Of a stretch of 64,000 nucleotides of DNA, positions 31,667-44,333 are shown piece by piece. Source of the DNA: Chitinophaga niabensis (GTDB taxonomy: Bacteria; Bacteroidota; Bacteroidia; Chitinophagales; Chitinophagaceae); contig NZ_CP154260.1 of the NCBI RefSeq assembly GCF_039545795.1, forward strand, positions 3,539,001-3,603,000, in the 5' to 3' direction. Numbering within the stretch: position 1 is the first letter of the stretch; every line of letters starts with the position of its first letter. The notes under the pieces were generated by a model. That model saw nothing but the letters and a program-made list of their open reading frames with translations, did not search any database and had not been told where the DNA came from. Both the position numbers and the translations under genes were made by a program.

Positions 31667-32428
31667 TCAGAACTTATAATACTCTTTGATCCGCGCCAGG
31701 AAATGGTCTTTCTTTCTCCTGGATACTTCCAGCTCCGTGTCGTTACTTAAAACAACACTGCCCCCCTCTCCTTTTATATATTCTTTGATGTGCAGCATAT
31801 TCACCAAAAAGGATTTATGGATCCGGCAAAAGGAGGAATCCTGCAGCAGCAATTCAAAATCAATGATAGAACGGGAAGATACCAGCGGTTTGCCTGTGGT
31901 AAGGTAAAAGGTGGTATAGGTATTATCCGCCTGGCAGTAAATGATATCTGCCAAATGCACCAGCAGGAAACCTTTTGTATGCGGAATGCATACTTTCATT
32001 TCCTGCGGGTGCTGCATGTTCTTCAGGTTATATTTCAATACTTCAATGGAAACAGGGTTGGCAGCAGTATGCAGTCTCCTCTCCACACGGTCCACCGCTT
32101 TTATCAGCAACTCTTCATCAATGGGTTTGAGGATGTAATCTATGGCACTGAACCGGAAAGCCTGCAGCATGAACTCGTTGTATGCAGTAATAAAAATGAT
32201 CTCGAAAGGGATCTGCTCCATTTCATTCAACAGGTCGAACCCGCTTTTCCCGGGCATGGCAATGTCCAGGAATAGCAGGTCCGGCTGCTGTAGTAAGATC
32301 TGTTTCTGCGTTTCAGCAGCACTGTTACATTCCGCCACCACATTAACGGATGGGCAATGTATTTCCAGCAGTTTCCGCAGCGTTTCCACACTGCGCACTT
32401 CATCGTCTGTGATAATGGCTTTTATCAT
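31667..32428 (-). CDS. LytTR-family response regulator
   Basis: Starting at MIKAIITDDE (ATG at 32428), the gene overlaps the kinase's stop as ATGA; an ATG at 32440 is also in frame. The receiver has the acid pair (DDE), the phospho-Asp in LLFLDIAMPG, Thr in FITAYNE and Lys in ILKPIDE. The C-terminal LytTR DNA-binding domain (about 150-250) includes CQADNTYTTFYL, FCRIHKSFLVNM and EVSRRKKDHFLARI. It is the partner of the LytS-type kinase and possibly the regulator of the divergent cassette. Confidence 0.93.
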   Translation of the reverse strand: MIKAIITDDEVRSVETLRKLLEIHCPSVNVVAECNSAAETQKQILLQQPDLLFLDIAMPGKSGFDLLNEMEQIPFEIIFITAYNEFMLQAFRFSAIDYILKPIDEELLIKAVDRVERRLHTAANPVSIEVLKYNLKNMQHPQEMKVCIPHTKGFLLVHLADIIYCQADNTYTTFYLTTGKPLVSSRSIIDFELLLQDSSFCRIHKSFLVNMLHIKEYIKGEGGSVVLSNDTELEVSRRKKDHFLARIKEYYKF

Positions 32429-35400
32429 ATGATCTTCCATGTTAGGGTTACAATTGTGCCGGTTTCATCCGTATGCCTGTCTCCTTTATCGGTAAAGGTG
32501 ATCACACAATCTGTATTATACTTCTGCCGCAGCAGCAAGATGCGCTTCTGAATATTTTCAATACCCATGGACAGGTGTTTGGTGGTACTGTTATGATCTT
32601 TTGTTTTATTGATGCCCACCCCATTGTCTTCTATCTCACAGACCAGGTAGTCGGCTTCTTTTGAGAAGGAGATCTTCAATTGCTTCTTTTCCTCAATGGC
32701 CTGTAAGCCATGCCAGATGGCATTCTCCGCCAGTGGCTGTATCAGCATCGGGGCTATCATTATTTCTTCTGTATCCAGTAATGTATCCACCTTCATTTCA
32801 TATTCAAAGTTCGTAAAACGGATCTGTTCCATTTTAAGGTAGTTATGCAGGTAGTTGATGTTCTGTTGCAGCGTGATAAAAGCGCGTTTGCTATGGTCTA
32901 GGTTTTCCCTGATGAGCTGGGCAAATTTGTTCAGGTAGCGGGAAGCATCATCGTTCTGTTGATAGATGATCATGCCCACTATACTGTTGAGGCAGTTAAA
33001 GATAAAATGCGGGTTCATCTGGGCGTGCAGGGCCTTCATTTCCATTTCTGTGAGCTGCTGGTTCAGCACAGCCAGTTCCAGTTCCAGTTGCAGCCGGCCT
33101 TTCATTTCTTCATTTTGTTTTGCCTGCGCATCGAACTTCACGGCAGCAGCCCTGCCCAGCACCAGTTCCCGCCATTTTAATAAAGAAAGTACAGCAGCTA
33201 CCAGCAGCAGCATGGAGAGCGTTATGAACCACCAGGTATTCCAAAAGGGCGGATGAATGATAATGAGCAGCTGTTTTGTTTTTTCATCCTGGTTCCTGTC
33301 CAGCGCCTTAATGTACAAATTGTATTTACCAGGTGAAAGGCTGGTCATATTGATCGTACGCAGGTTCCGCAATGGTACCCAGGAAGTACTTTCATTCAAA
33401 CGGTAGTAGAAATGATAACTGGAGGTATTGTTATAATTGATGAGGGTAAAACGGATGGACAGGTTGTTCTGTTTATAAGGGAACGTTACGGTATCGCGGG
33501 GATAATGTACCAGGGCATTGGGCGCAGTTACCTGCTCTATCAGGATGTTGTTATTGTTCTGTACAACCGGTTCTGCGGAAGGCCGGAAGCGGATGAGGTA
33601 TTTCGCCAGCAGGGCATAACACTGGTCTGCTGCTTCATCATAAAAGATATACCGCGCACTGGGCCTTCCTTCCGGGATACCATCCTTTGTACCATAGATA
33701 TTTGAACTGCCTGTTTGCAGGTTGATATTGCCTATCTGGTTACTGGGTGTGGAAAACCAGATCTTACCTGCCACTTCTTTATTAGACAGGTTAACGAGCG
33801 CATTAAAAGAAACGCCGTCCAAAAGCGAGTGGCTGACGAAGCGTTTTTCCCTGATCCGGTATTCCTGTAATCCATTCTCAAAGCTGTGCAGCCAAAGAGA
33901 ACCACGGTTGTCTGCCGTAATGGTGAGAATATTGTCCTCATCTTTGTTCAGTCCATTGTACCTGTTCATCAAAGTATCAAAACGGTTGGTCTTATAGTTC
34001 CAGCGGGCAAGGCCATAACCTGACAACCAGGCATCACCATAGGCATCATAGACCACCTGCTTCGGTCTTTCGAAAGGTAATTCAGGGTTGGTGGTATTTG
34101 TATAACAAGTGAACTGCCGGGTATGTATATTGTATTTTGCTACCACACCTCCCCATGGCCGCAACATCCAGGTATCGCCGTTTTCCATCACAGGATTTAA
34201 TGCCACCCGGCCATGCTGCAATGGTTCCGGCAAGGCTACTTTACCACTGTGGTAATTCTTTGTATCCAGCCAGGCTACGCCATCATTGGTGCCTATCCAT
34301 AAAGTATCCGGGTAATAACATTGAATGGAAGGGTTCTCATCGTAGTTAATGTGATATCCCGGCAGCCTGACCTTTTTTATCACTTTCATGGTAGCGGTAT
34401 CCACAACGGTAATGTGAGGTTGTCTGGCTGCTTTGGCCAGGTATAAACGATCTTTATAACGGGTGAGGTAACAGAAATAGGAATAACCTTCTGCGGCATA
34501 GTCGTTCAGCAGATAAGAAGTGAATAAAGGCTGTTCCTTTTTTTCATACAGCAGTCCGTTGGACGTACCTACCCAGAGCCGCTCTTCCTTATCCATAAAG
34601 AGATAGTTACACTTATACCCTTTCAGCGATCTGTTTTCATCAAATGTAACCTCGCCCGTTTGTTCATTCAACTTAAAGGTATAATACCCGGAGCCGCCTG
34701 ATGTAATGGCAAAACGGTTCCTTCCAAACGGAAAGATCCTGCTGTCTTCCGAAAGATCATCGTGGATCACAGCTGGCATGGCCGTTACTTTTGCCCTGCC
34801 GGTGGCTGCATTGTAATAAGTGAAACTCCGCTGCCGGCTGTGCACCAGCATAAAACGAACGGAATCCATCTGATAACGGGCTATCCAGTCTTCTCCCGGC
34901 GGATAAAATGCAGACCATTCAGCAGGTAAAGCTGTTCTGTAACGCACGAATGTATTTGTTGCGGGAATGTAAAGGGATACCCCTTCATCTTTCGTAAACA
35001 ACAATGCATTATGGTCCGGTAACAGGAAGATATTCCTGCCATAATTCACCATTTCCTGTCCGGAATACCCGCTGCGTAAACGGTTGTAAGCATATGCCAT
35101 ACTGCCGTTTGCATGCATTACATAAAAACCAACGGTGGTACTGATGGCAAAGGCGCCATTCTTCAGCTTCAGCACATCCGTCAGGCGGTTGGGATTGGCC
35201 GGATTCCTTTCTGTATCCGGCAACAGGTAATTCCTGCGTGCGAGTGTGGTGGTATTCACCTGCTGCAGCCCCTTTTGCGTAAGCACCAGTATTTCGTGCA
35301 GGCCGGTCCTTTTCAGCTCCAGTACATGATTGCCGGGGATGCTGTAGCTGCTGGTATCATGATAAAAACTCTGGAATATGTTCCCGTCAAAGCGGTTCAG

Positions 35401-35574
35401 GCCGTTCTCAGTACCGAGCCAGATATACCCCAGATCATCCTGCGTGATACAGAAAACGTTGTTATCGGATAATCCCTGTTGTACCGTATACCGTTCAAAA
35501 GAAGAGGCCTGTAGCTGAGCATGGGCTACACAACCATACAATATAAGGCAGGAGGTGAGGAACTGTTTTTTCAT
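32425..35574 (-). CDS. LytS-type sensor histidine kinase with periplasmic propeller and Y_Y_Y domain
   Basis: The 1049-aa protein has a signal peptide (about 1-19) and a long periplasmic part with repeated two-component-propeller motifs (DDLGYIWLGTENGLNRFDG, KEERLWVGTSNGL, DNRGSLWLHSFENGL). A Y_Y_Y domain follows (about 700-760, SPGKYNLYIKALDRN). A membrane helix (WWFITLSMLLLVAAVLSLL) sits near 780. The cytoplasmic His_kinase domain has the phospho-His in MNPHFIFNCLNSI and the N box LIQPLAENAIWHGL. Such sensors often detect polysaccharide fragments or envelope signals. It is co-transcribed with the LytTR regulator and divergent from the ESPFL cassette. Confidence 0.93.
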   Translation of the reverse strand: MKKQFLTSCLILYGCVAHAQLQASSFERYTVQQGLSDNNVFCITQDDLGYIWLGTENGLNRFDGNIFQSFYHDTSSYSIPGNHVLELKRTGLHEILVLTQKGLQQVNTTTLARRNYLLPDTERNPANPNRLTDVLKLKNGAFAISTTVGFYVMHANGSMAYAYNRLRSGYSGQEMVNYGRNIFLLPDHNALLFTKDEGVSLYIPATNTFVRYRTALPAEWSAFYPPGEDWIARYQMDSVRFMLVHSRQRSFTYYNAATGRAKVTAMPAVIHDDLSEDSRIFPFGRNRFAITSGGSGYYTFKLNEQTGEVTFDENRSLKGYKCNYLFMDKEERLWVGTSNGLLYEKKEQPLFTSYLLNDYAAEGYSYFCYLTRYKDRLYLAKAARQPHITVVDTATMKVIKKVRLPGYHINYDENPSIQCYYPDTLWIGTNDGVAWLDTKNYHSGKVALPEPLQHGRVALNPVMENGDTWMLRPWGGVVAKYNIHTRQFTCYTNTTNPELPFERPKQVVYDAYGDAWLSGYGLARWNYKTNRFDTLMNRYNGLNKDEDNILTITADNRGSLWLHSFENGLQEYRIREKRFVSHSLLDGVSFNALVNLSNKEVAGKIWFSTPSNQIGNINLQTGSSNIYGTKDGIPEGRPSARYIFYDEAADQCYALLAKYLIRFRPSAEPVVQNNNNILIEQVTAPNALVHYPRDTVTFPYKQNNLSIRFTLINYNNTSSYHFYYRLNESTSWVPLRNLRTINMTSLSPGKYNLYIKALDRNQDEKTKQLLIIIHPPFWNTWWFITLSMLLLVAAVLSLLKWRELVLGRAAAVKFDAQAKQNEEMKGRLQLELELAVLNQQLTEMEMKALHAQMNPHFIFNCLNSIVGMIIYQQNDDASRYLNKFAQLIRENLDHSKRAFITLQQNINYLHNYLKMEQIRFTNFEYEMKVDTLLDTEEIMIAPMLIQPLAENAIWHGLQAIEEKKQLKISFSKEADYLVCEIEDNGVGINKTKDHNSTTKHLSMGIENIQKRILLLRQKYNTDCVITFTDKGDRHTDETGTIVTLTWKII

Positions 35575-35755: not shown

Positions 35756-38164
35756 ATGGAATCGCCTTTCCTGCATTTCCCCAATCTCGAAAGAGAGGTG
35801 AATGCTGAACCACTTCCCGTTGTAAAGGAAACCTACACGGAAAGCCCCTTTCTCAATGTCAATAAGCTATATGGCAAACCCCAGGGCTTTGATAAAAAAG
35901 CCGAAGCTTATGTGACCATTATGAACGAACTCCACGATGATGAGTTTAATGAGCAGATGGAGGATCTGCTGAATGAGATGAAAGACTTCCGTGAGAAATA
36001 TAATTCACGGGATGGCTACATGAACAATGAAGTATATACCCGCCAGCTTACCCAAAGCTATTACCAGCCCATGATACGGGAGATGAACAGTTATTTCGAC
36101 AAGGTGGTGCAATATGGTCATGAAGTGGATAATAACCTTCGCACCGTTACAGATCTTGAAACACTGTTCTCCGATCATGAGTTTTCCGGAACCGACCTCA
36201 CAGATGTGCAGGAACAATTCCTGGGTGGTCTTAAAAAGGCCTTTAAAAAAGTAGTGGGTGTGGCAAAAAAAGTAGGCAAAGGTGCTATCGCTGCAGGTAA
36301 GTTTGTAGCGAAAGCAGCACTGGGGCCTATCCTCAGCCGGATCACAGGTATCTTTAAAAAGTTCCTGGCCGGCGTACTCAAAGATGGTATTAATCTGCTG
36401 CCCGGAAAATACAGGACCCTTGCGCAATCACTGGCAGGCAAATTACTGCCTGCCAGCATGCGCCCTCAGCCAGCACCTGTTGCTCCTGTAACTCCTGTTG
36501 CACCGGAACCGGATTCCACCCGGGATATCGCAGAAGATATCCAGGATGGCCTGAATGCTGCCACGGCCCAGGTACTGACAGCAGAAAATGAAATGGAATG
36601 GCAACTGATGGAAGCGGAACTGGAGCAATCCCTGGATGAAGCTCCGGAGGAAAACACGGAAGTGCTTTCTGTCGCCAGGCAACGTTTCGTACAACAGTTG
36701 AATGAACTGGAAGATGGCGATAATCCGCAACCGGCAGTTGAACAGTTTGCCCCCATCGTTACCACTGCGCTGAGATTTGCGCTACCGCTGCTCGGCAAAG
36801 AAAGAGTGAAAAGCTGGCTCACTTCCCTCATCAGTAAATTAATCACCCCCTTTATTGGAAAAGACAATTCCCAGATGCTTTCCCGTTTAATGGTAGACAA
36901 AGGGTTTACCATGCTGAACCTGGAAACTGCGGAAGGGAATGCGGGCACTACTGCCATTGCGGAAGTAGTAGAGAACACCATACGGCAGGTACCGGAGTTT
37001 CCTTCATATGTGCTGGAAGACAGGCAGCTTTTTGAACGTTACATTGTGCAGGCTTTTGAAAAGTCTGCCGCCGCCTACCTGCCGGATGTTCTTCCCGAAA
37101 AAGCCTACGATGCCCAGCCGGAGCTGCGGGAATCCAACGAAAGATCTGTTGTCTGGAAAAATGAACCTCCTTCCGCCGAAGAAGCAGCACCCGGATACAA
37201 GGTGCTGAATGAAGTGATCGAAACGGAGATCACGCCCTATATTGCCAACGAGATCAAAACCTTCGGAGGTATTCCATTATCGGTTTTCCTGCGGGACAAA
37301 CTGGGCATCTCCGTTAATTCCAGCATACCGGTGAAAGTACATCTCTTTGAATCTTCTCCCCGGAATGATCTCTTCCAGATCGCAAAAAAAGCAAAACGGA
37401 TACGTGGCTTAGGCAATGCATCCAGAAGTGCCTGGATGCAATTGCACCCGCTTACTTCTGTAGCTGCTGGTTTGCTCATGCGTGAGCCCGGTCTGGGTTG
37501 CAGAAGGGGTAAAGAGAACTGCCTCGGCAAAAGGAAGAGTGCGCAGGGGCACCGTTACTATTATCTTGAAATAGATGGTGCCCGCCCGCAATATTTTCAG
37601 CCTGCAAAAGGCAAACAGGTATTGAGAAAACATACTTCCCTCAAAGCCCGCCTGAACTTTGTAACGGGCGAGATCAATATGCAGCTCTTCCTCAGTGAAA
37701 GTGATGCACAGGCGGTGGCTGCCTGCTTAAGGAAAAAGAACCAGTCTGAAGCCGCACACATTATGGTGATGATGGCTTTCAAAGAAGGTTTGAAAAATAT
37801 ATTCAGCTACGGCAAGTTCGATTATTTAAAGATCGTTCACCAGCATGTAGTGCCGGGCAGTCATTCCGGTATGGCCATAGATAAAGTGCCGCCAATGATC
37901 ACCCGTTCCTTCAGCAATGCTTTAAGCAACTGGACGGGCAAAGCGATGATCGGTTTCCTGCGGGACCATGCGGACAAATTAATACAGGCAGCAGAAGACA
38001 ATTCAGATGGCCTGAGCCTTCGCATCAGCTTCTCCAACCCGCCGGACTTTGATCTCATGAAAGAAATGCTGGCAGGCAATTACGCGGCTGTAAAAGAAGA
38101 CATCTTTAACGAATACCCCAAAGAAAGCAGCATACATGCAAGTCCGGGACATCAGCAGGATTAA
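35756..38164 (+). CDS. Unrecognised ESPFL-motif protein with cationic amphipathic segment
   Basis: From ATG 35756 the product has 802 residues; a TTG at 35678 would add 26. It has no signal peptide. ESPFL occurs at residues 2-6 and again at 29-33. A Lys/Ala/Gly-rich amphipathic stretch at about 155-205 (FLGGLKKAFKKVVGVAKK and onwards to GIFKKFLAGVL) resembles a cationic membrane-active helix. A Pro/Val-rich linker follows (PAPVAPVTPVAPEP). The C-terminal 400 residues look globular and contain a Cys pair (LGCRRGKENC). I know no family for it. It is the first gene of a five-gene plus-strand cassette, overlapping the metallopeptidase gene by 29 bp. A membrane-acting or toxin role is inferred. 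Confidence 0.75.
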   Translation: MESPFLHFPNLEREVNAEPLPVVKETYTESPFLNVNKLYGKPQGFDKKAEAYVTIMNELHDDEFNEQMEDLLNEMKDFREKYNSRDGYMNNEVYTRQLTQSYYQPMIREMNSYFDKVVQYGHEVDNNLRTVTDLETLFSDHEFSGTDLTDVQEQFLGGLKKAFKKVVGVAKKVGKGAIAAGKFVAKAALGPILSRITGIFKKFLAGVLKDGINLLPGKYRTLAQSLAGKLLPASMRPQPAPVAPVTPVAPEPDSTRDIAEDIQDGLNAATAQVLTAENEMEWQLMEAELEQSLDEAPEENTEVLSVARQRFVQQLNELEDGDNPQPAVEQFAPIVTTALRFALPLLGKERVKSWLTSLISKLITPFIGKDNSQMLSRLMVDKGFTMLNLETAEGNAGTTAIAEVVENTIRQVPEFPSYVLEDRQLFERYIVQAFEKSAAAYLPDVLPEKAYDAQPELRESNERSVVWKNEPPSAEEAAPGYKVLNEVIETEITPYIANEIKTFGGIPLSVFLRDKLGISVNSSIPVKVHLFESSPRNDLFQIAKKAKRIRGLGNASRSAWMQLHPLTSVAAGLLMREPGLGCRRGKENCLGKRKSAQGHRYYYLEIDGARPQYFQPAKGKQVLRKHTSLKARLNFVTGEINMQLFLSESDAQAVAACLRKKNQSEAAHIMVMMAFKEGLKNIFSYGKFDYLKIVHQHVVPGSHSGMAIDKVPPMITRSFSNALSNWTGKAMIGFLRDHADKLIQAAEDNSDGLSLRISFSNPPDFDLMKEMLAGNYAAVKEDIFNEYPKESSIHASPGHQQD

Positions 38165-39377
38165 GTATGAACCGCTGCTGGTGCAGGCCAATCACTGGCT
38201 GGCAGCAGCAAAGCGGCTGGAAGATATGGATGCCCTTGCCAGTGAACTGGCGTGGAAAAGCCTGGAGCAATATGTGCATCCGCATCTCCGGCAGCATCTT
38301 TCCATCTGCGTTAAAAAGCTGGTGAACAAAGGTGAGGCCATGCAGCAAAGGCTACAAAATGGTACTGCTACCGAATTCGAAATAGAACGGTTCAAAAGGA
38401 GTTACCTGCAGGTGGAAACACTGATGGACTTTTATGCAGATGCATTGGCCACACGCACCAATCCAGCCGTCACAGCTACTTTAAAAGCCTGTGATTATAT
38501 AGCGGAACACAGTATGAGGATGTTGCTGGAGCCATTGGGCCATACAACACCTGCAGTGATCACTTATATCGACAAAGGTATGGGTGCCTCCATTCTCAAA
38601 GCAGGGCTTCGCCTCTGGGATGATTCGGAAAACCCCGCCGCTGCCATCAAGATCGTACGGCATAACCTGTTAAGGCCCACAGCACTGATACATGAAGCCG
38701 GGCACCAGGTGGCACATATAACAGGATGGAATGAACAACTGGCAGCAGCATTGCGCCATGCACTTTTAAAACATGGCGCTGAATTAGCAGACAGCTGGGC
38801 AGCCTGGTCGTCTGAAATAGCGGCGGACATTTTTGCTTTTGTGCATACCGGCTTTGCTTCTGTAGCAGCATTACATGATGTGGTGGATGGCCCTTCGCGG
38901 GGTGTACTGCATTATTCCTCCGGCGACCCGCATCCCATCAGTTACCTGCGTGTACTGGTAGGTACGGAATGTTGCAAACATTGTTTCGGAAACGGGGTAT
39001 GGGATCATATGCGCCGTAACTGGATGCGCAGGCATCCACTGGAAAATGCAAGGCCTGCAACGGCTAAACTGATCCGCGCTTCGCTTCCTTTGTTACCGGA
39101 GATCGTAAAGGTGTTACTGGATTATCCCCTGCGCGCTTTCCGCAACAAAAGCATCCGGCAGCAGATTGATGTGAACGCCGTTCATCCTGCCAGTCTGCAA
39201 AGCACAGCAGACCTGTATGGTACTTCTTTTTATACTTCCGCTCCCCTGCTGCTGAAAGCACCATTGCTCAGGCTTGCCTGGAATGGTTACCAGCTGATAG
39301 CAGCACCGGAACAGGCGGAACGTTTCCAGGATCAGCAAAGATCATGGATGCAACTTTTAGGAAACTCAATTAAATAA
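38136..39377 (+). CDS. Putative HExxH zinc metallopeptidase in the ESPFL cassette
   Basis: The 413-aa protein has an HEAGH motif (residues 186-190) and, 36 residues later, SSEIAAD (Glu227, Asp231), a gluzincin-like third-ligand pattern. Helices around the motif are consistent with a metallopeptidase core. No signal peptide or membrane helix is apparent. The ATG at 38136 lies inside the upstream gene's end, indicating co-translation. It might process the ESPFL proteins or act as an effector itself; neither can be shown here. I cannot assign a peptidase family. Confidence 0.7.
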   Translation: MQVRDISRIKYEPLLVQANHWLAAAKRLEDMDALASELAWKSLEQYVHPHLRQHLSICVKKLVNKGEAMQQRLQNGTATEFEIERFKRSYLQVETLMDFYADALATRTNPAVTATLKACDYIAEHSMRMLLEPLGHTTPAVITYIDKGMGASILKAGLRLWDDSENPAAAIKIVRHNLLRPTALIHEAGHQVAHITGWNEQLAAALRHALLKHGAELADSWAAWSSEIAADIFAFVHTGFASVAALHDVVDGPSRGVLHYSSGDPHPISYLRVLVGTECCKHCFGNGVWDHMRRNWMRRHPLENARPATAKLIRASLPLLPEIVKVLLDYPLRAFRNKSIRQQIDVNAVHPASLQSTADLYGTSFYTSAPLLLKAPLLRLAWNGYQLIAAPEQAERFQDQQRSWMQLLGNSIK

Positions 39378-39394
39378 CGCTAACAATTACTACA

Positions 39395-39598
39395 ATGGCA
39401 AAAGAAAAACTCACCTCCACCGGTGTTCCTGAATCCTCAGAAAGCAATAACGGCGGCCGCCAGAAGATCATCGTACCTCCTCCCACCGTACTGCAGCAAT
39501 TTGAGATCTACCGCAAGCTCCTCAGGGGAGATGTGAACTTTCAATGGTTCTTCTCTAACCTTGAGCTCAGGAAATGTAACCCCATCATTATAGAATAA
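39395..39598 (+). CDS. Small protein of unknown function in the ESPFL cassette
   Basis: The 67-residue protein starts with a polar, disordered region (KLTSTGVPESSESNNGG) followed by a compact hydrophobic half (PTVLQQFEIYRKLLRGDVNFQWFFSNLELRK). It fits exactly between two cassette genes, 17 bp after one and 34 bp before the other. It has no signal peptide. It could be a chaperone, adaptor or immunity protein; I do not recognise it. Confidence 0.6.
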   Translation: MAKEKLTSTGVPESSESNNGGRQKIIVPPPTVLQQFEIYRKLLRGDVNFQWFFSNLELRKCNPIIIE

Positions 39599-39632
39599 AA
39601 TAGTCTTTCCATAACCCCTCAAAGTAACTACC

Positions 39633-40823
39633 ATGTTCAGAAGAATAGTTTCAAACGGTAACTCTTTCCAGGATACGTTAGCCAACGATCCTTCCCCGGA
39701 ATACATTGAAAGTGCCAACAGGCTTTTTCAATTACACCCTACTGAATTACATGCACTGCTGGAATCCGCCTGGTCTTTCCGGGTAAAGGAAAACAGGCAG
39801 CCCGGCCACCCCGGCAATAAAACAACACTGCGCGGCCTGCCGGATGATCTGATAGGATTGTTCGACAATAACTGGCAGAACGGTACCACCTTTGTTACAC
39901 AGGTGGGTGTAGGCAATCCCTGCACAGGTCACTCTTTATGGGACCACCTTATTTATGCATACGTAATTGAATCTACCCAGGTATATAAAGTCTTCCAAAA
40001 ACTAATTGAGAATTATGCGAAGGGAGATTTTGAGATCAATCTTCAGCCGGCTGTATTGCAATGGCTGCATAACACAGAAACATTGTGGTTTGCAGACCCG
40101 CCGGTGCTCTCTTCTTTCAACTTTGTCAGCAAGGCCCGTCCGGATATTATGCTCACACGCCTGGGCTCTTATTACCGTTTCTTTGGCTTCTCCTTACCGG
40201 GAGATGAACAACCTTATTACAAAGCAAAATCCGCCCACCTCAACTACCGCCGTTCCTTTGAAAGGTTTGCAGAAGAGATCTGGATAGGTATTGAGAACGA
40301 AGCGAACGTTACCGGCAGAAGGCCTATCGATGATGCCGCCATTGCCTTCAGTGCGTACGAAATGCAAAAGAACTTCCTCTCCCAGCGTAATAACGGAGAC
40401 ATCACCAAACAGGAATTCTTCTTTGTGTCTATGATGGCCTGGTTCCACCTTTCCCTGGAATACAACAGCCCCATTGTTCAGGCATTTGGTATCAATGAAC
40501 AAAGCCCTGCACAGCGGCTCTTTGCATTGGCCAATATCGTTGGCGTACCTGCCAACGGGCTCAGCGAAAACCTCTTCAGGCTGGGAGACAACATGAGCCT
40601 CCTGCTCACACTCATTGAAACAGGTATATTCAATGATGAGCTAAACGTTCCTGCCTTGTATGAAGATAATTCCCCGCTTGCCAACATGATGAAGCAGATC
40701 ATCTTTAACTACTCTCATGTTTCCGGCAATAACCTCAAAGCAAGGGCTGTTAAAACATACGACAGTATGCCGCTGCAGAAAGGGAATGGTATCCTCACAA
40801 ACGGCCAGGCAGTTCATTCCTGA
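39633..40823 (+). CDS. Hypothetical protein in the ESPFL cassette
   Basis: The 396-residue protein has no signal peptide and no membrane helix. It is mostly helical, with aromatic-rich segments (TGHSLWDHLIYAYVIES, KQEFFFVSMMAWFHLSLEYN). It has no catalytic motif I recognise and no ESPFL motif. Its position between the small protein and the 1157-aa protein suggests it works with them. Confidence 0.7.
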   Translation: MFRRIVSNGNSFQDTLANDPSPEYIESANRLFQLHPTELHALLESAWSFRVKENRQPGHPGNKTTLRGLPDDLIGLFDNNWQNGTTFVTQVGVGNPCTGHSLWDHLIYAYVIESTQVYKVFQKLIENYAKGDFEINLQPAVLQWLHNTETLWFADPPVLSSFNFVSKARPDIMLTRLGSYYRFFGFSLPGDEQPYYKAKSAHLNYRRSFERFAEEIWIGIENEANVTGRRPIDDAAIAFSAYEMQKNFLSQRNNGDITKQEFFFVSMMAWFHLSLEYNSPIVQAFGINEQSPAQRLFALANIVGVPANGLSENLFRLGDNMSLLLTLIETGIFNDELNVPALYEDNSPLANMMKQIIFNYSHVSGNNLKARAVKTYDSMPLQKGNGILTNGQAVHS

Positions 40824-40859
40824 TAACCATCATTTTTCATCGCTATTAAATTCATATTT

Positions 40860-43800
40860 ATGGACAACCATAAATGGGAAGGGTCTATCCTGGATAACCA
40901 GGAAGACTTCTCCCCCTTCCATAGATTCCGGAAACCACGGAGGGTTTGGTTCAGAAGAGAAGACGGTACGGAAATGGAACTGGAATCTCCCTTCCTTTTC
41001 CCAGTGTTGGCACAGGAGGAAGAAAGATTTGAGTTTGACACACCCAAAACACCGGTAACGCTTCCCGCCATACCGTCCGCCATTGTGGAAACATGGGGGA
41101 ATGAAACCACCATGCTGGAACACATTAAAAAGCTGGCCCTTTCCGCTTTGCCCGATCTGGCCAAAAAGCCTACTGCTAAATGGACAGCTGCTGATAAAAA
41201 AGAACTGAAATCTGTATCTACTGCTATCCGTAAAAAGTTAGTGGCGGCCAGGCATCAGCTTTATAAAAAAGGACCGCTGCCTGCTATTGGTACAATAAAG
41301 ATCCCCTACGGCTTCAAAGCATTGAGGAGAGGATTGAGAACGGATACTGCCGTTCTCCCCTGCCCGCGTGTGGATACTGTACTGGCAGACCTGCATAATA
41401 AAGGCCTGATCAATATCACGCAGGACCAGCTGGATGTTTTTCAAAGGATGGCCAATGTAGAAACCAGCGGCATGATCACTACGCTTAACAGCTGGGACTC
41501 TGCAGTTGTGAGTATCGGTTTCTTCCAGCTAACACTGCATACCGGCAAACTGCAAAGGTGGATCAAACTCGCACCCGCTGCTTTTAAACGTTATGGTATA
41601 GAACTGCACGCCAGTAATGTTTACACTTTCGATCCAACGGAAAAACATCCGGCCATCGGGAATGTAGCGAATAAAGACAGGGCACAGCTGCGCTTTCATG
41701 GATGGGCTGAGAGATTCCATTATGCCGGGCTGGACCAGGATGTGATCATTGCACAGGTAACGTTTGGTATCAAATACCTGGAAGAGCAAAAGAAAGGCCT
41801 GAAAAACAGGTTGAAGGCCACTTTCAAACAAAAGACCACTGACCTCTACGACCGGTTCATCAATGATCATTATAATAAGAGTGCATATATCCGTGGACTC
41901 TTCCAGGAGAGTTTCAATAACAATCCTGCCAAAGCCACCAGAGCCGTTTATAAAGCCATGACCACACCTGATAAGGCGGACTGGCTGGAGGGCTACAAGA
42001 ACATGCTCATTGCAGAAGATCTGAAATCCATTGTCACCAAAACCAGCACCGGTACCAGCATTGTGCTGAAGAAAACGCAGCCGGAGCTGGGGGACGGGGC
42101 CTACAGTGAATATGAGGATGCGTATGATGAGCATGAGGGTACACATGATGATGAGATGACGTATGAAGCTGCATATGATGAAGGAGAAGCAGATGATGAA
42201 GAGGAAACGAATGACGATATGGAATCTGAAGATGCATCCGGCGAAGGGGAAGCAGATGATGAATACGATCAGGAGGAAATGGAAGATAACGAATCTGAAG
42301 ACCTTTCTGATGAGATGGAATACGATGAAGAGGAATCTGAAGACCTCTCCGATGAAATGGAATATGATGAAGAGGAATCTGAAGATCTTTCTGATGAAAT
42401 GGAATATGATGAAGAAGAGGAAGCGGCGTATGATGAGCAGGAATATGATGATGAAATGGAAGAGGACGAATCCGAAGATATCTCTGAAGAAGCGGAATAC
42501 GATGAAAAGGAGGAAGATGAATATGAAGAACTTGAAGAGGACATCGCAGCAGAATACGAAACAAACCCTCCTGCCGGCACTACCGACTACCTCAAAGTAA
42601 GCGCTATCAGAGGCTTAAGACTGCGCACGGGTATGTTCATTCCTCCTTCCTGCACCCCTTCTTCAAAGATTGATATCGTTGTGTACTTACATGGTCTCTT
42701 TGGCCAGGGAAGCCAGCAAAACGGCATGGAACTATACTGGCAGAAATACTCAAAGATCAGGGACCACTTCAGCAGCAGTAATAAAAATGCCATCCTGCTC
42801 GCGCCTTCCCTGAGTACCAACCCACAGGTGGAAACTATCTTCAGGGCACAATACGGCTTTGATAAATTTATCGCGGCCTGTTTTAAAGCCATGAAAGCAG
42901 CCAAACATATACCTGAAGATGCAGAACCCGGCAGGATCATTGTTGCTGCACATTCCGCCGGCGGAAGCCCCATGAGCGACATCCTCAATTACAGGAACAA
43001 GCTGCATGCCCGGATAGTGGAATGCTGGGGATTTGATTGCCTCTATGGATACAACTTTGAAACCTGGCTGAAAAAAGACCGGAATAAAAACAAACTCTAT
43101 CATTATTACGCCTTCAACAGCAAAGGGAAAAAAACCGGCCCGGCCATCAATGGCGATACTTTAGCAAAACGTCATTCCAACATACAGAACATTGCACCGG
43201 CAAAAGGCATACAGCATCAGGGAGTTATTGCTTATGCATGGAAAAACGAGATCAACAACCGCCCATGGTTTGAGCCTGTTACTTCAAAAGAGCTGGATGA
43301 CTACGAAATGCCATCACGCACCAAAACAATCACACCCATCGTTTTAACAAGGAACCTTCGTGAAATGATTCCGGCCAGCGACAAAAAAAAGCACGCACAG
43401 ATCAAAGAAGCGCCGGCAGATTACCTGAAAGCTATTATTGAGGATGCAGATCCCAGCTTTAAAGTAGGTGCATGGTATAAAAATTTCACGAGCTTCACCT
43501 TCCTGGGCAGGAAACTGAGCGAGGGAACTTATATCCATATGGAAATGGCTATCCTGCTGCAAAAGATCGAAGATTATTTCATGAAGGCTAAAAACACCAC
43601 CAATGCCAAACTGGCCGGTGATGCCTTAGGGATGACCAAACCTCCGGAAGCAATTCCCGGTCACCGCCTTACCTCTTCCACGGCAGTATATTCCTATCAC
43701 ATGTTTGGCCTGGGTGTGGACGTTGATTATACCCGTAATCCCATGATACAGGCCCGCGGTGCTTTTGATGCATTCATGAGAAGAGTGGGCTGGCTCACTG

Positions 43801-44333
43801 CAGGGAAAGATATTCCACTGGCTAAATGGCAAAAACCCGGTTCAACCAGTGGATACATGAAACTGTATGACGACCTCAGAACATTGAACAATCATTTCCT
43901 CCAATATTTTGCCTACCTCAAAGATCATACGGCTTTGCAGGCAAGGCTGGATGCAGCCCCTGCCAATACATGGGGCAAGAAAGTAAAGGTATCCTGGAAA
44001 GGAATGAGTTTGAACGATGCACTTAAGCTGATAAAGAAAGATCTGACAGAGATCTCCAATGCCTGGAAAGGCAGAAGAAGTAATCCGGAAGATATTTTCT
44101 CCAGGTACGGCTTCCTGAATCAATCCAAAGAACTGGTGAAAGGTATGGTGGAACATGGTATGGACTGGGGTGCCTGGTATGGTGATATCATGCACTTTGA
44201 TATGCGTACCACAGGTGTAGGGCTTAAAATTGGCCGCGCCATCGGAAGATACAGCAGCAAAAAAACGGCAGAAGCAGTGGTGAAGTATAAAGCACAACAG
44301 GCTGCCGTTCAGAAAGAGTTCGTCAATTCATAA
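40860..44333 (+). CDS. Large multi-module ESPFL protein: muramidase-like, acidic repeats, alpha/beta-hydrolase-like, M15 peptidase
   Basis: The 1157-residue protein has no signal peptide; an ESPFL motif is at residues 42-46. Residues about 165-390 include a lysozyme/transglycosylase-like pattern (ANVETSG with Glu201, then SIGFFQL). Residues 411-566 are highly acidic, including three tandem copies of a 14-aa unit SEDLSDEMEYDEEE (479-520). Residues about 575-800 look like an alpha/beta hydrolase (YLHGLFGQGS; nucleophile elbow AAHSAGG, Ser699). Residues about 835-1130 carry M15-type zinc peptidase motifs: SxHxxGxGxD with Ser945, His947, Asp954, and DIMHFD with Asp1109, His1112. M15 enzymes cleave peptidoglycan stem peptides. 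Together this resembles a cell-wall-degrading effector. It is the last gene of the cassette. Confidence 0.78.
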   Translation: MDNHKWEGSILDNQEDFSPFHRFRKPRRVWFRREDGTEMELESPFLFPVLAQEEERFEFDTPKTPVTLPAIPSAIVETWGNETTMLEHIKKLALSALPDLAKKPTAKWTAADKKELKSVSTAIRKKLVAARHQLYKKGPLPAIGTIKIPYGFKALRRGLRTDTAVLPCPRVDTVLADLHNKGLINITQDQLDVFQRMANVETSGMITTLNSWDSAVVSIGFFQLTLHTGKLQRWIKLAPAAFKRYGIELHASNVYTFDPTEKHPAIGNVANKDRAQLRFHGWAERFHYAGLDQDVIIAQVTFGIKYLEEQKKGLKNRLKATFKQKTTDLYDRFINDHYNKSAYIRGLFQESFNNNPAKATRAVYKAMTTPDKADWLEGYKNMLIAEDLKSIVTKTSTGTSIVLKKTQPELGDGAYSEYEDAYDEHEGTHDDEMTYEAAYDEGEADDEEETNDDMESEDASGEGEADDEYDQEEMEDNESEDLSDEMEYDEEESEDLSDEMEYDEEESEDLSDEMEYDEEEEAAYDEQEYDDEMEEDESEDISEEAEYDEKEEDEYEELEEDIAAEYETNPPAGTTDYLKVSAIRGLRLRTGMFIPPSCTPSSKIDIVVYLHGLFGQGSQQNGMELYWQKYSKIRDHFSSSNKNAILLAPSLSTNPQVETIFRAQYGFDKFIAACFKAMKAAKHIPEDAEPGRIIVAAHSAGGSPMSDILNYRNKLHARIVECWGFDCLYGYNFETWLKKDRNKNKLYHYYAFNSKGKKTGPAINGDTLAKRHSNIQNIAPAKGIQHQGVIAYAWKNEINNRPWFEPVTSKELDDYEMPSRTKTITPIVLTRNLREMIPASDKKKHAQIKEAPADYLKAIIEDADPSFKVGAWYKNFTSFTFLGRKLSEGTYIHMEMAILLQKIEDYFMKAKNTTNAKLAGDALGMTKPPEAIPGHRLTSSTAVYSYHMFGLGVDVDYTRNPMIQARGAFDAFMRRVGWLTAGKDIPLAKWQKPGSTSGYMKLYDDLRTLNNHFLQYFAYLKDHTALQARLDAAPANTWGKKVKVSWKGMSLNDALKLIKKDLTEISNAWKGRRSNPEDIFSRYGFLNQSKELVKGMVEHGMDWGAWYGDIMHFDMRTTGVGLKIGRAIGRYSSKKTAEAVVKYKAQQAAVQKEFVNS
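42294..42419 (+). repeat. Three 42-bp in-frame tandem repeats in the acidic region
   Basis: The units encode SEDLSDEMEYDEEE three times in a row (residues 479-520 of the 1157-aa protein). Degenerate relatives precede and follow. The copies differ by synonymous changes, so they are not brand new. Confidence 0.85.

Follow-up and report, generated by a model that had tools for sequence, protein, structure and literature searches.

What is the function of five genes, most of them without a recognisable family, that run head to tail in the genome of Chitinophaga niabensis? They occupy positions 35756-44333 of a 64,000-nucleotide stretch of contig NZ_CP154260.1 (positions 3,539,001 to 3,603,000), called the window throughout, and are named here g1 to g5. 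The initial annotation, made from the letters alone, took their recurring ESPFL motif for an address or processing tag and the whole for an antibacterial or lytic apparatus. Following it up computationally, we find that three of the genes, g1, g2 and g4, belong to one coherent core across many phyla, and that g1 and the variable enzyme encoded downstream of the core have an N-terminal SPF tag in common, usually paired in g1. A modular cassette for tag-directed cargo delivery is the best explanation of this pattern, and we judge it about equally likely to be right or wrong.

All five open reading frames (ORFs) are real, lie on the + strand and have the sizes first proposed; g1 and g2 overlap by 29 nt, and the genes after them are spaced by 17, 34 and 36 nt. 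The core protein g1 (35756..38164, 802 aa) joins a disordered N-terminus bearing two SPF tags to a cationic amphipathic segment, a helical middle and an α/β C-terminal domain. It is followed by g2 (38136..39377, 413 aa), a predicted gluzincin-type zinc peptidase with conserved HExGH, ExxxD and HPxxxxR motifs; by g3 (39395..39598, 67 aa), a variable small protein filling the g2-g4 interval; and by g4 (39633..40823, 396 aa), a core protein that is all-helical in its AlphaFold2 model and, by homologue search, without relatives of known kind. The cargo, g5 (40860..44333, 1157 aa), consists of a tagged N-terminus, an unassigned domain, an acidic linker, a region that looks hydrolase-like by eye and an M15-like C-terminus. 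A program-made ORF list places the start of g1 at an upstream TTG (828 aa); because close homologues open with MESPFL (P0197, P0198) or MDTPFL, translation likely begins at the ATG at 35756.

As first noticed, ESPFL occurs twice in g1, at residues 2-6 (35759..35773, + strand) and 29-33 (35840..35854, +), and once in g5, at residues 42-46 (40983..40997, +). An FSPFH at residues 17-21 of g5 (40908..40922, +), initially overlooked, precedes the latter, so g5 also holds an SPF pair, with a spacing of 25 residues against 27 in g1. The three copies of ESPFL in the five proteins (2835 aa) compare with 0.0026 expected from composition. A degenerate DNA pattern for ESPFL has 48 matches in the whole genome: 33 were read (30 loci, three of them the window's own copies, and three that were fetched), and the remaining 15 lack a serine codon in position two. 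Outside the cassette, a single long ORF, which by eye encodes a TonB-receptor type, carries ESPFL, internally at about residue 380-395, and all other occurrences fall in open stretches of less than 200 codons.

The core block is constant wherever it is found. In the protein collection g4 has 76 homologues, including Noc_2190 of Nitrosococcus oceani, while Noc_2192 is a homologue of g2. When the named genomes were scanned with an alignment of g4, 50 loci came up, five of which (L039, L041, L062, L070, L077) are cut, the contig starting inside or just before the block; in 44 of the 45 uncut ones g1, g2 and g4 follow in the same order on one strand. The exception, L081, is a Flavihumibacter metagenome-assembled genome that has g4 with no g1 or g2 within 9.7 kb upstream. 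As this sample had been picked through g4, an independent search was made by g2 alone. All nine new strong matches (E 1e-90 or better; G428 in L096, and L121-L128) have g1 and g4 beside them, and five weaker matches, all in Bacteroidota (L097-L101), belong to other loci without g4. Homologues of the core therefore stay together; what does not survive of the original five-gene cassette is the constancy of its other members, g3 not being one family and g5 being one of many exchangeable cargos.

The hosts, taken from record titles, amount to about 12 phyla, the archaeal one included: Bacteroidota, Cyanobacteriota, Actinomycetota, Pseudomonadota, Bacillota, Acidobacteriota, Verrucomicrobiota, Planctomycetota, Nitrospinota, Dormibacteraeota and Fischerbacteria, besides the archaeon Methanosarcina. 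Trees of g1, g2 and g4, built for 41 loci, are congruent, with Mantel r values of 0.73-0.78 against a null maximum of 0.24 and 21-23 of 38 splits in common. Among the sequence sets, A2 omits L041 (cut), L050 and L059 (g1 broken) and L075, A3 omits L059 and L077, and A4 is a chosen subset; in L050 and L059, g1 is split over several reading frames by decay or sequencing error. In the g2 tree Methanosarcina clusters with Fischerbacteria and Rhizobacter, a grouping that may point to transfer of the cassette between domains.

The cassette is rare. A strong g2 match occurs in 2 of 395 Bacteroidota genomes (one being the window's own), 3 of 111 from the family of the Methanosarcina genome, 3 of 388 from a cyanobacterial class and 9 of 394 from an actinobacterial class, each sample containing genomes already known as carriers. 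Within the genus, g4 is present in 3 of 35 relatives, and g1 was found in none of the 32 g4-less ones, a list without a positive control. A phage or plasmid origin was considered and rejected: no g2 relative was found in viral contigs or phage records, and the five plasmid matches are distant g2-like proteins. The PADLOC models of anti-phage defence likewise recognised no family in any of the five proteins.

Across loci, we scored a tag as (S/T)PF within the first 120 residues and a gene as adjacent if it starts at most 60 nt after g4. The tag is found in 41 of 44 g1 proteins (broken pieces from L050 and L059 among them) and in 21 of 30 adjacent downstream genes, as against 0 of 48 g2, 3 of 50 g4, 2 of 14 other downstream ORFs and 11 of 330 control genes (other genes of at least 150 aa from the same loci; Fisher p 3e-19 for adjacent cargos versus controls). 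The controls come from a longest-ORF caller, so that G+C-rich loci contribute some artefact ORFs, and they include tagged genes lying more than 60 nt from g4, a bias against the reading we favour. With the stricter (E/D)(S/T)PF the counts are 31 of 44 g1, 15 of 30 adjacent genes and 2 of 330 others. Position matters as much as presence: of the (S/T)PF copies in the 30 cargos, 25 fall within the N-terminal 120 residues (3600 aa) and three elsewhere (18683 aa), a roughly 40-fold difference in density, and g1 holds 75 in its N-terminal 5280 aa against four in the other 29576 aa.

In g1 the motif is usually bipartite. Two copies of (S/T/A)PF lie within the first 130 residues in 36 of 44 g1 proteins, 24-33 residues apart in 33 of these, and a comparable pair, one relaxed copy being allowed, occurs in 14 cargos, including those of the window and of L038. 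In several cargos the first copy runs on like SPFLDEELF and the second like ESPFLxAFE. A profile search with g1, whose candidate list was probably crowded by low-complexity words, returned 12 proteins; all 11 that retain the N-terminus carry two SPF motifs, but these are mostly from Chitinophaga, and P0200 is from the species of L033. Second tagged genes come next in L041, L046 and L068. The loci newly found through g2 repeat the pattern, with an adjacent tagged gene in eight of nine (the exception is L096); with L124 and L126-L128 closely related, and the two archaeal loci likewise, the eight represent about four independent cases. Random scatter, which would have emptied the motif of meaning, is not what is seen: it concentrates at the N-termini of g1 and of adjacent cargos.

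The genes that carry the tag downstream of the core encode a changing set of enzymes. Scanned against Pfam, 16 of 26 adjacent proteins (all 30 except L032, L033, L048 and L062) pass the cut-off for a family that acts on or binds peptidoglycan: VanY, M15, M23, M74, SLT, YkuD, Phage_lysozyme2 or PG_binding_1. Trypsin is found in five (L034, L036, L039, L068, L077), the L079 cargo has tyrosinase with DUF7868 only, and four (L035, L044, L051, L066) have no family above cut-off. An unusual cargo occurs in L074, L075 and L078, where SPF-tagged proteins unite a PG_binding_1 match, tyrosinase and DUF7868. Four non-adjacent neighbours gave VanY (L050), OmpA below cut-off (L046), P450 (L049) and SIS (L056). 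Five of the eight cargos of the new loci, the other three being close relatives of that of L124, comprise SLT with PG_binding_1 twice, both archaeal, VanY, OmpA and NlpC/P60.

The cargo of the window itself was initially described as a wall-lytic multi-enzyme protein, a description that holds for one end of it. Its C-terminal segment matches Peptidase_M15_4 (PF13539, D-Ala-D-Ala carboxypeptidase; 44091..44204, + strand) at 27.2 bits, above the cut-off of 25, and the whole protein scores 24.3 bits, just under it; g5 also has a long acidic linker, and for its two other parts neither a family nor a PDB sequence was matched. The Kyte-Doolittle test gave no hydrophobic N-terminus for the proteins of the cassette, in keeping with the absence of a signal peptide noted at the outset, and among 31 cargos it found no hydrophobic stretch within the N-terminal 60 residues. 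No Pfam trafficking-domain family appears in the scanned cargos. All three archaeal loci encode SLT with PG_binding_1, although Methanosarcina is not known to make murein. The target of this peptidoglycan-cleaving cargo should therefore be other cells there, and the archaeal copies argue for an aim at foreign cells.

The AlphaFold2 model of g1 has a mean predicted local distance difference test score (pLDDT) of 70.6, with residues 1-3 and 5-44 below 50. Residues 1-44, which carry both tags, are thus predicted to be disordered, and are followed in the model by helices and then by the α/β domain. The cationic amphipathic stretch claimed for the cassette is present in g1 at about residues 155-233 (36218..36454, + strand) and is seen in the charge of homologues: at the positions matching residues 155-251 their net charge has a median of +13, against -29 for the other residues of the chain, and is at least +8 in 37 of 42 homologues, while the remainder is negative in all 42.

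The HExxH protease that had been proposed is g2, with HEAGH at residue 186 (38691..38705, + strand) and E227xxxD231 (38814-38828, +). Residues H186, E187, H190, E227 and D231 are invariant in 47 aligned sequences, and HPxxxxR is invariant or nearly so. These three motifs are what g2 has in common with gluzincins of the M48-like type; it differs in an extra N-terminal helical part and in matching no curated family. No curated peptidase family matched the window's g2; the 47 members gave scattered weak non-peptidase matches (best E 7e-4, LNT_N, in three members), and the NCBIfam YpfJ-type model scored 9 bits against a cut-off of 250. With an E value of 0.001 or lower, the g2 profile matches 2092 clusters, which include distant g2-like ones.

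For g4 the model is confidently all-helical (pLDDT 86.9; predicted template modelling score, pTM, 0.86), and its best Foldseek match in the PDB has an E value of 1.6. No credible family for g1, g2 or g4 came from any library tried, and their relatives are named 'hypothetical' or 'uncharacterized' protein among the matches listed (for g2, the best 120 of the 2092 clusters). A small ORF stands at the g3 position in most loci without forming one family and, by eye, appears to track the core lineage and not the cargo type. Its length varies between lineages, from short to longer, with FN3-like (L039) or IPT/TIG-like (L040, L049) beta domains by eye. As a candidate immunity protein, g3 found no support.

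Tag-directed assembly and delivery fit these data best because of the common N-terminal signal, the lack of Sec signals, and the peptidase and helical protein alongside. The SPF tag would serve for docking and be recognised by a core protein, either g4 as an all-helical adaptor or g2, and its recognition would gather g1 and cargo into one cytoplasmic complex. With its cationic amphipathic helices, g1 could serve as a membrane-active carrier or pore, and g2 would trim or activate the tagged proteins. The cargo, whether cell-wall enzyme, trypsin or tyrosinase, would then act outside, mainly on rival bacteria. Tag recognition, export and killing are thus steps that we infer. As to the initial annotation, its address tag is supported by the position of the motif, at the predicted-disordered N-terminus of g1 and at the N-termini of otherwise unrelated adjacent enzymes; its antibacterial role is supported indirectly, by the cargo families and by the peptidoglycan enzymes of archaeal copies; its export, packaging, processing and lysis remain proposals.

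Several observations weigh against this reading. Nine of the 30 adjacent genes lack (S/T)PF (L041, L045, L052, L054, L060-L064), among them that of L062, probably an artefact ORF, and some that show near forms such as SPL or TPL. In 20 loci no gene starts within 60 nt of g4: five of them end within 350 nt; in two, L038 and L046, a tagged gene follows after 85 or 109 nt; and 13 have no tagged gene nearby, as is also the case for L096. Unrelated neighbours occur in some loci (the P450 in L049; the SIS, on the opposite strand, in L056). The g1 model is just moderately confident, and internal hydrophobic stretches appear in 19 of 45 g1 and 16 of 49 g2 proteins. Some cargos are of cross-linking, not lytic, types, and no immunity gene was recognised beside the core. 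Finally, no membrane route is seen: no extra gene family stands beside the core in more than five loci, once core-antisense artefacts are removed.

The intact gluzincin-type signature of g2 would also suit a zymogen system that remodels the producer's own envelope, in which g2 cleaves tagged pro-enzymes for the wall or matrix at SPF as the processing site; YkuD and tyrosinase, as cross-linking types, would be at home there. Yet the tag is also found on g1, which has no enzyme family, the cargos without a hydrophobic N-terminus would still need a route out, and the archaeal peptidoglycan enzymes have no substrate in their own host. We regard this explanation as unlikely.

Alternatively, the cassette could be the cargo-supplying module of an extracellular contractile injection system (eCIS), and SPF would then be the tag that loads cargo into a tube encoded elsewhere. 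Like eCIS cargos, the tagged proteins would be soluble, variable effectors with an N-terminal loading signal and no Sec signal, in bacteria as well as archaea. The genome of C. niabensis does possess two tandem T4 gp19-type tube genes (L102, 141097-141946), an arrangement also found in eCIS loci, about 3.4 Mb away and so not linked to the cassette (3.57 Mb versus 0.14 Mb). The tube family PF06841 occurs in 25 of 53 genomes with cassette genes, compared with 89 of 395 in a Bacteroidota sample that is not taxon-matched. A study of archaeal peptidoglycan hydrolases reports that genomes encoding a sheath domain are slightly enriched (P = 0.059) for such hydrolases lacking a signal peptide (PMC12352652).

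However, 28 of the 53 genomes have no PF06841 match (several are drafts, and one is the g4-only L081), among them Methanosarcina (L037), Paenibacillus, two Nocardia, Streptomyces sp. ISL-87, Hymenobacter and Niastella; with about half of the carriers showing no tube gene, eCIS is unlikely as a general route. Within the genus there is no link either, as 29 of 32 cassette-less relatives have the tube. The cassette also differs in having no sheath, tube, baseplate or ATPase and in its three unmatched core families. On these grounds we reject eCIS as the sole route and consider the module hypothesis rather improbable, while eCIS may be the export route in some carriers.

A self-lysis cassette would resemble a phage holin and endolysin, with g1 permeabilising the cell's own membrane and the cargo digesting its own wall, as the cationic amphipathic g1 next to wall enzymes could suggest. 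The archaeal carriers of peptidoglycan enzymes, not known to have murein of their own, argue against it, trypsin and tyrosinase cargos fit it poorly, and neither a lysis family in PHROGs nor a copy in viral contigs or phage records was found, so that we think it quite improbable. Least of all do we believe in a conserved neighbourhood without joint function whose motif is a relic of common N-terminal ancestry: domain swapping could derive tagged cargos from one another, and L081 has g4 without g1 and g2, but order and strand are constant in about 12 phyla, the trees are congruent, and g1 carries the same tag with no similarity to cargos in clustering.

Other known systems resemble the proposed delivery cassette in part. 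Polymorphic toxins and effector clusters of the type VI secretion system, for example those with the RIX marker domain, also combine a constant N-terminal marker with changing catalytic domains. In contrast, the marker of the cassette is a short motif that is present on a core protein too, no immunity gene is recognised, and the hosts are Gram-positive, Gram-negative and archaeal. A sister-like arrangement is seen in the EF-repeat loci (L097-L101, L104, L105), whose g2-like gene matches with E values of roughly 1e-45 to 1e-63. In the majority of these loci it adjoins a protein that is acidic and in part made of EF repeats, frequently beginning with MHNIDRT or the like; in L100 and L101 this protein matches g1 weakly (E about 1e-5). 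These loci differ in having no g4 match and in their other partners, such as an M20 peptidase and an amidohydrolase in L100.

Upstream of the cassette and divergent from it, on the - strand, lie genes for a sensor with Reg_prop, Y_Y_Y and His_kinase domains (32425..35574) and for a Response_reg and LytTR regulator (31667..32440), its likely partner, all from a domain scan. A sensor homologue (E 1e-200 or better) is present in all three other cassette-bearing genomes of the genus and in 1 of 32 cassette-less ones (Fisher p 8e-5, own genome counted). This points to dedicated control of the cassette by the sensor in Chitinophaga, where the pair probably switches it on; an inherited neighbourhood could give the same pattern.

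Three families, unnamed by any library tried, keep together across bacteria and archaea. A literature search, with thin coverage of subscription journals and hence weak as evidence, found no account of the cassette or of the SPF tag among titles and the openings of abstracts. In its fullest form, our proposal is an undescribed three-protein machine of bacteria and archaea, unrelated to known secretion systems, that would recognise a bipartite SPF tag and export interchangeable enzymes, sometimes from archaea against bacteria; we think this plausible, if a little short of an even chance. Archaeal peptidoglycan hydrolases that kill bacteria offer a point of comparison: they too are archaeal proteins with peptidoglycan-acting domains, and the study gives a known signal peptide for 67 of 210 and none for the rest, so that a route is wanted for the others (PMC12352652). 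The two tested there differ from the cargos in carrying a Tat signal, and 'Methanosarcina' was not found in the main text of the paper. The idea is directly testable, since the SPF tag predicts cargo in any genome. If tagged enzymes are indeed exported, the cassette would represent a new kind of small delivery route, by which peptidoglycan hydrolases that lack signal peptides could get out of both archaea and bacteria.

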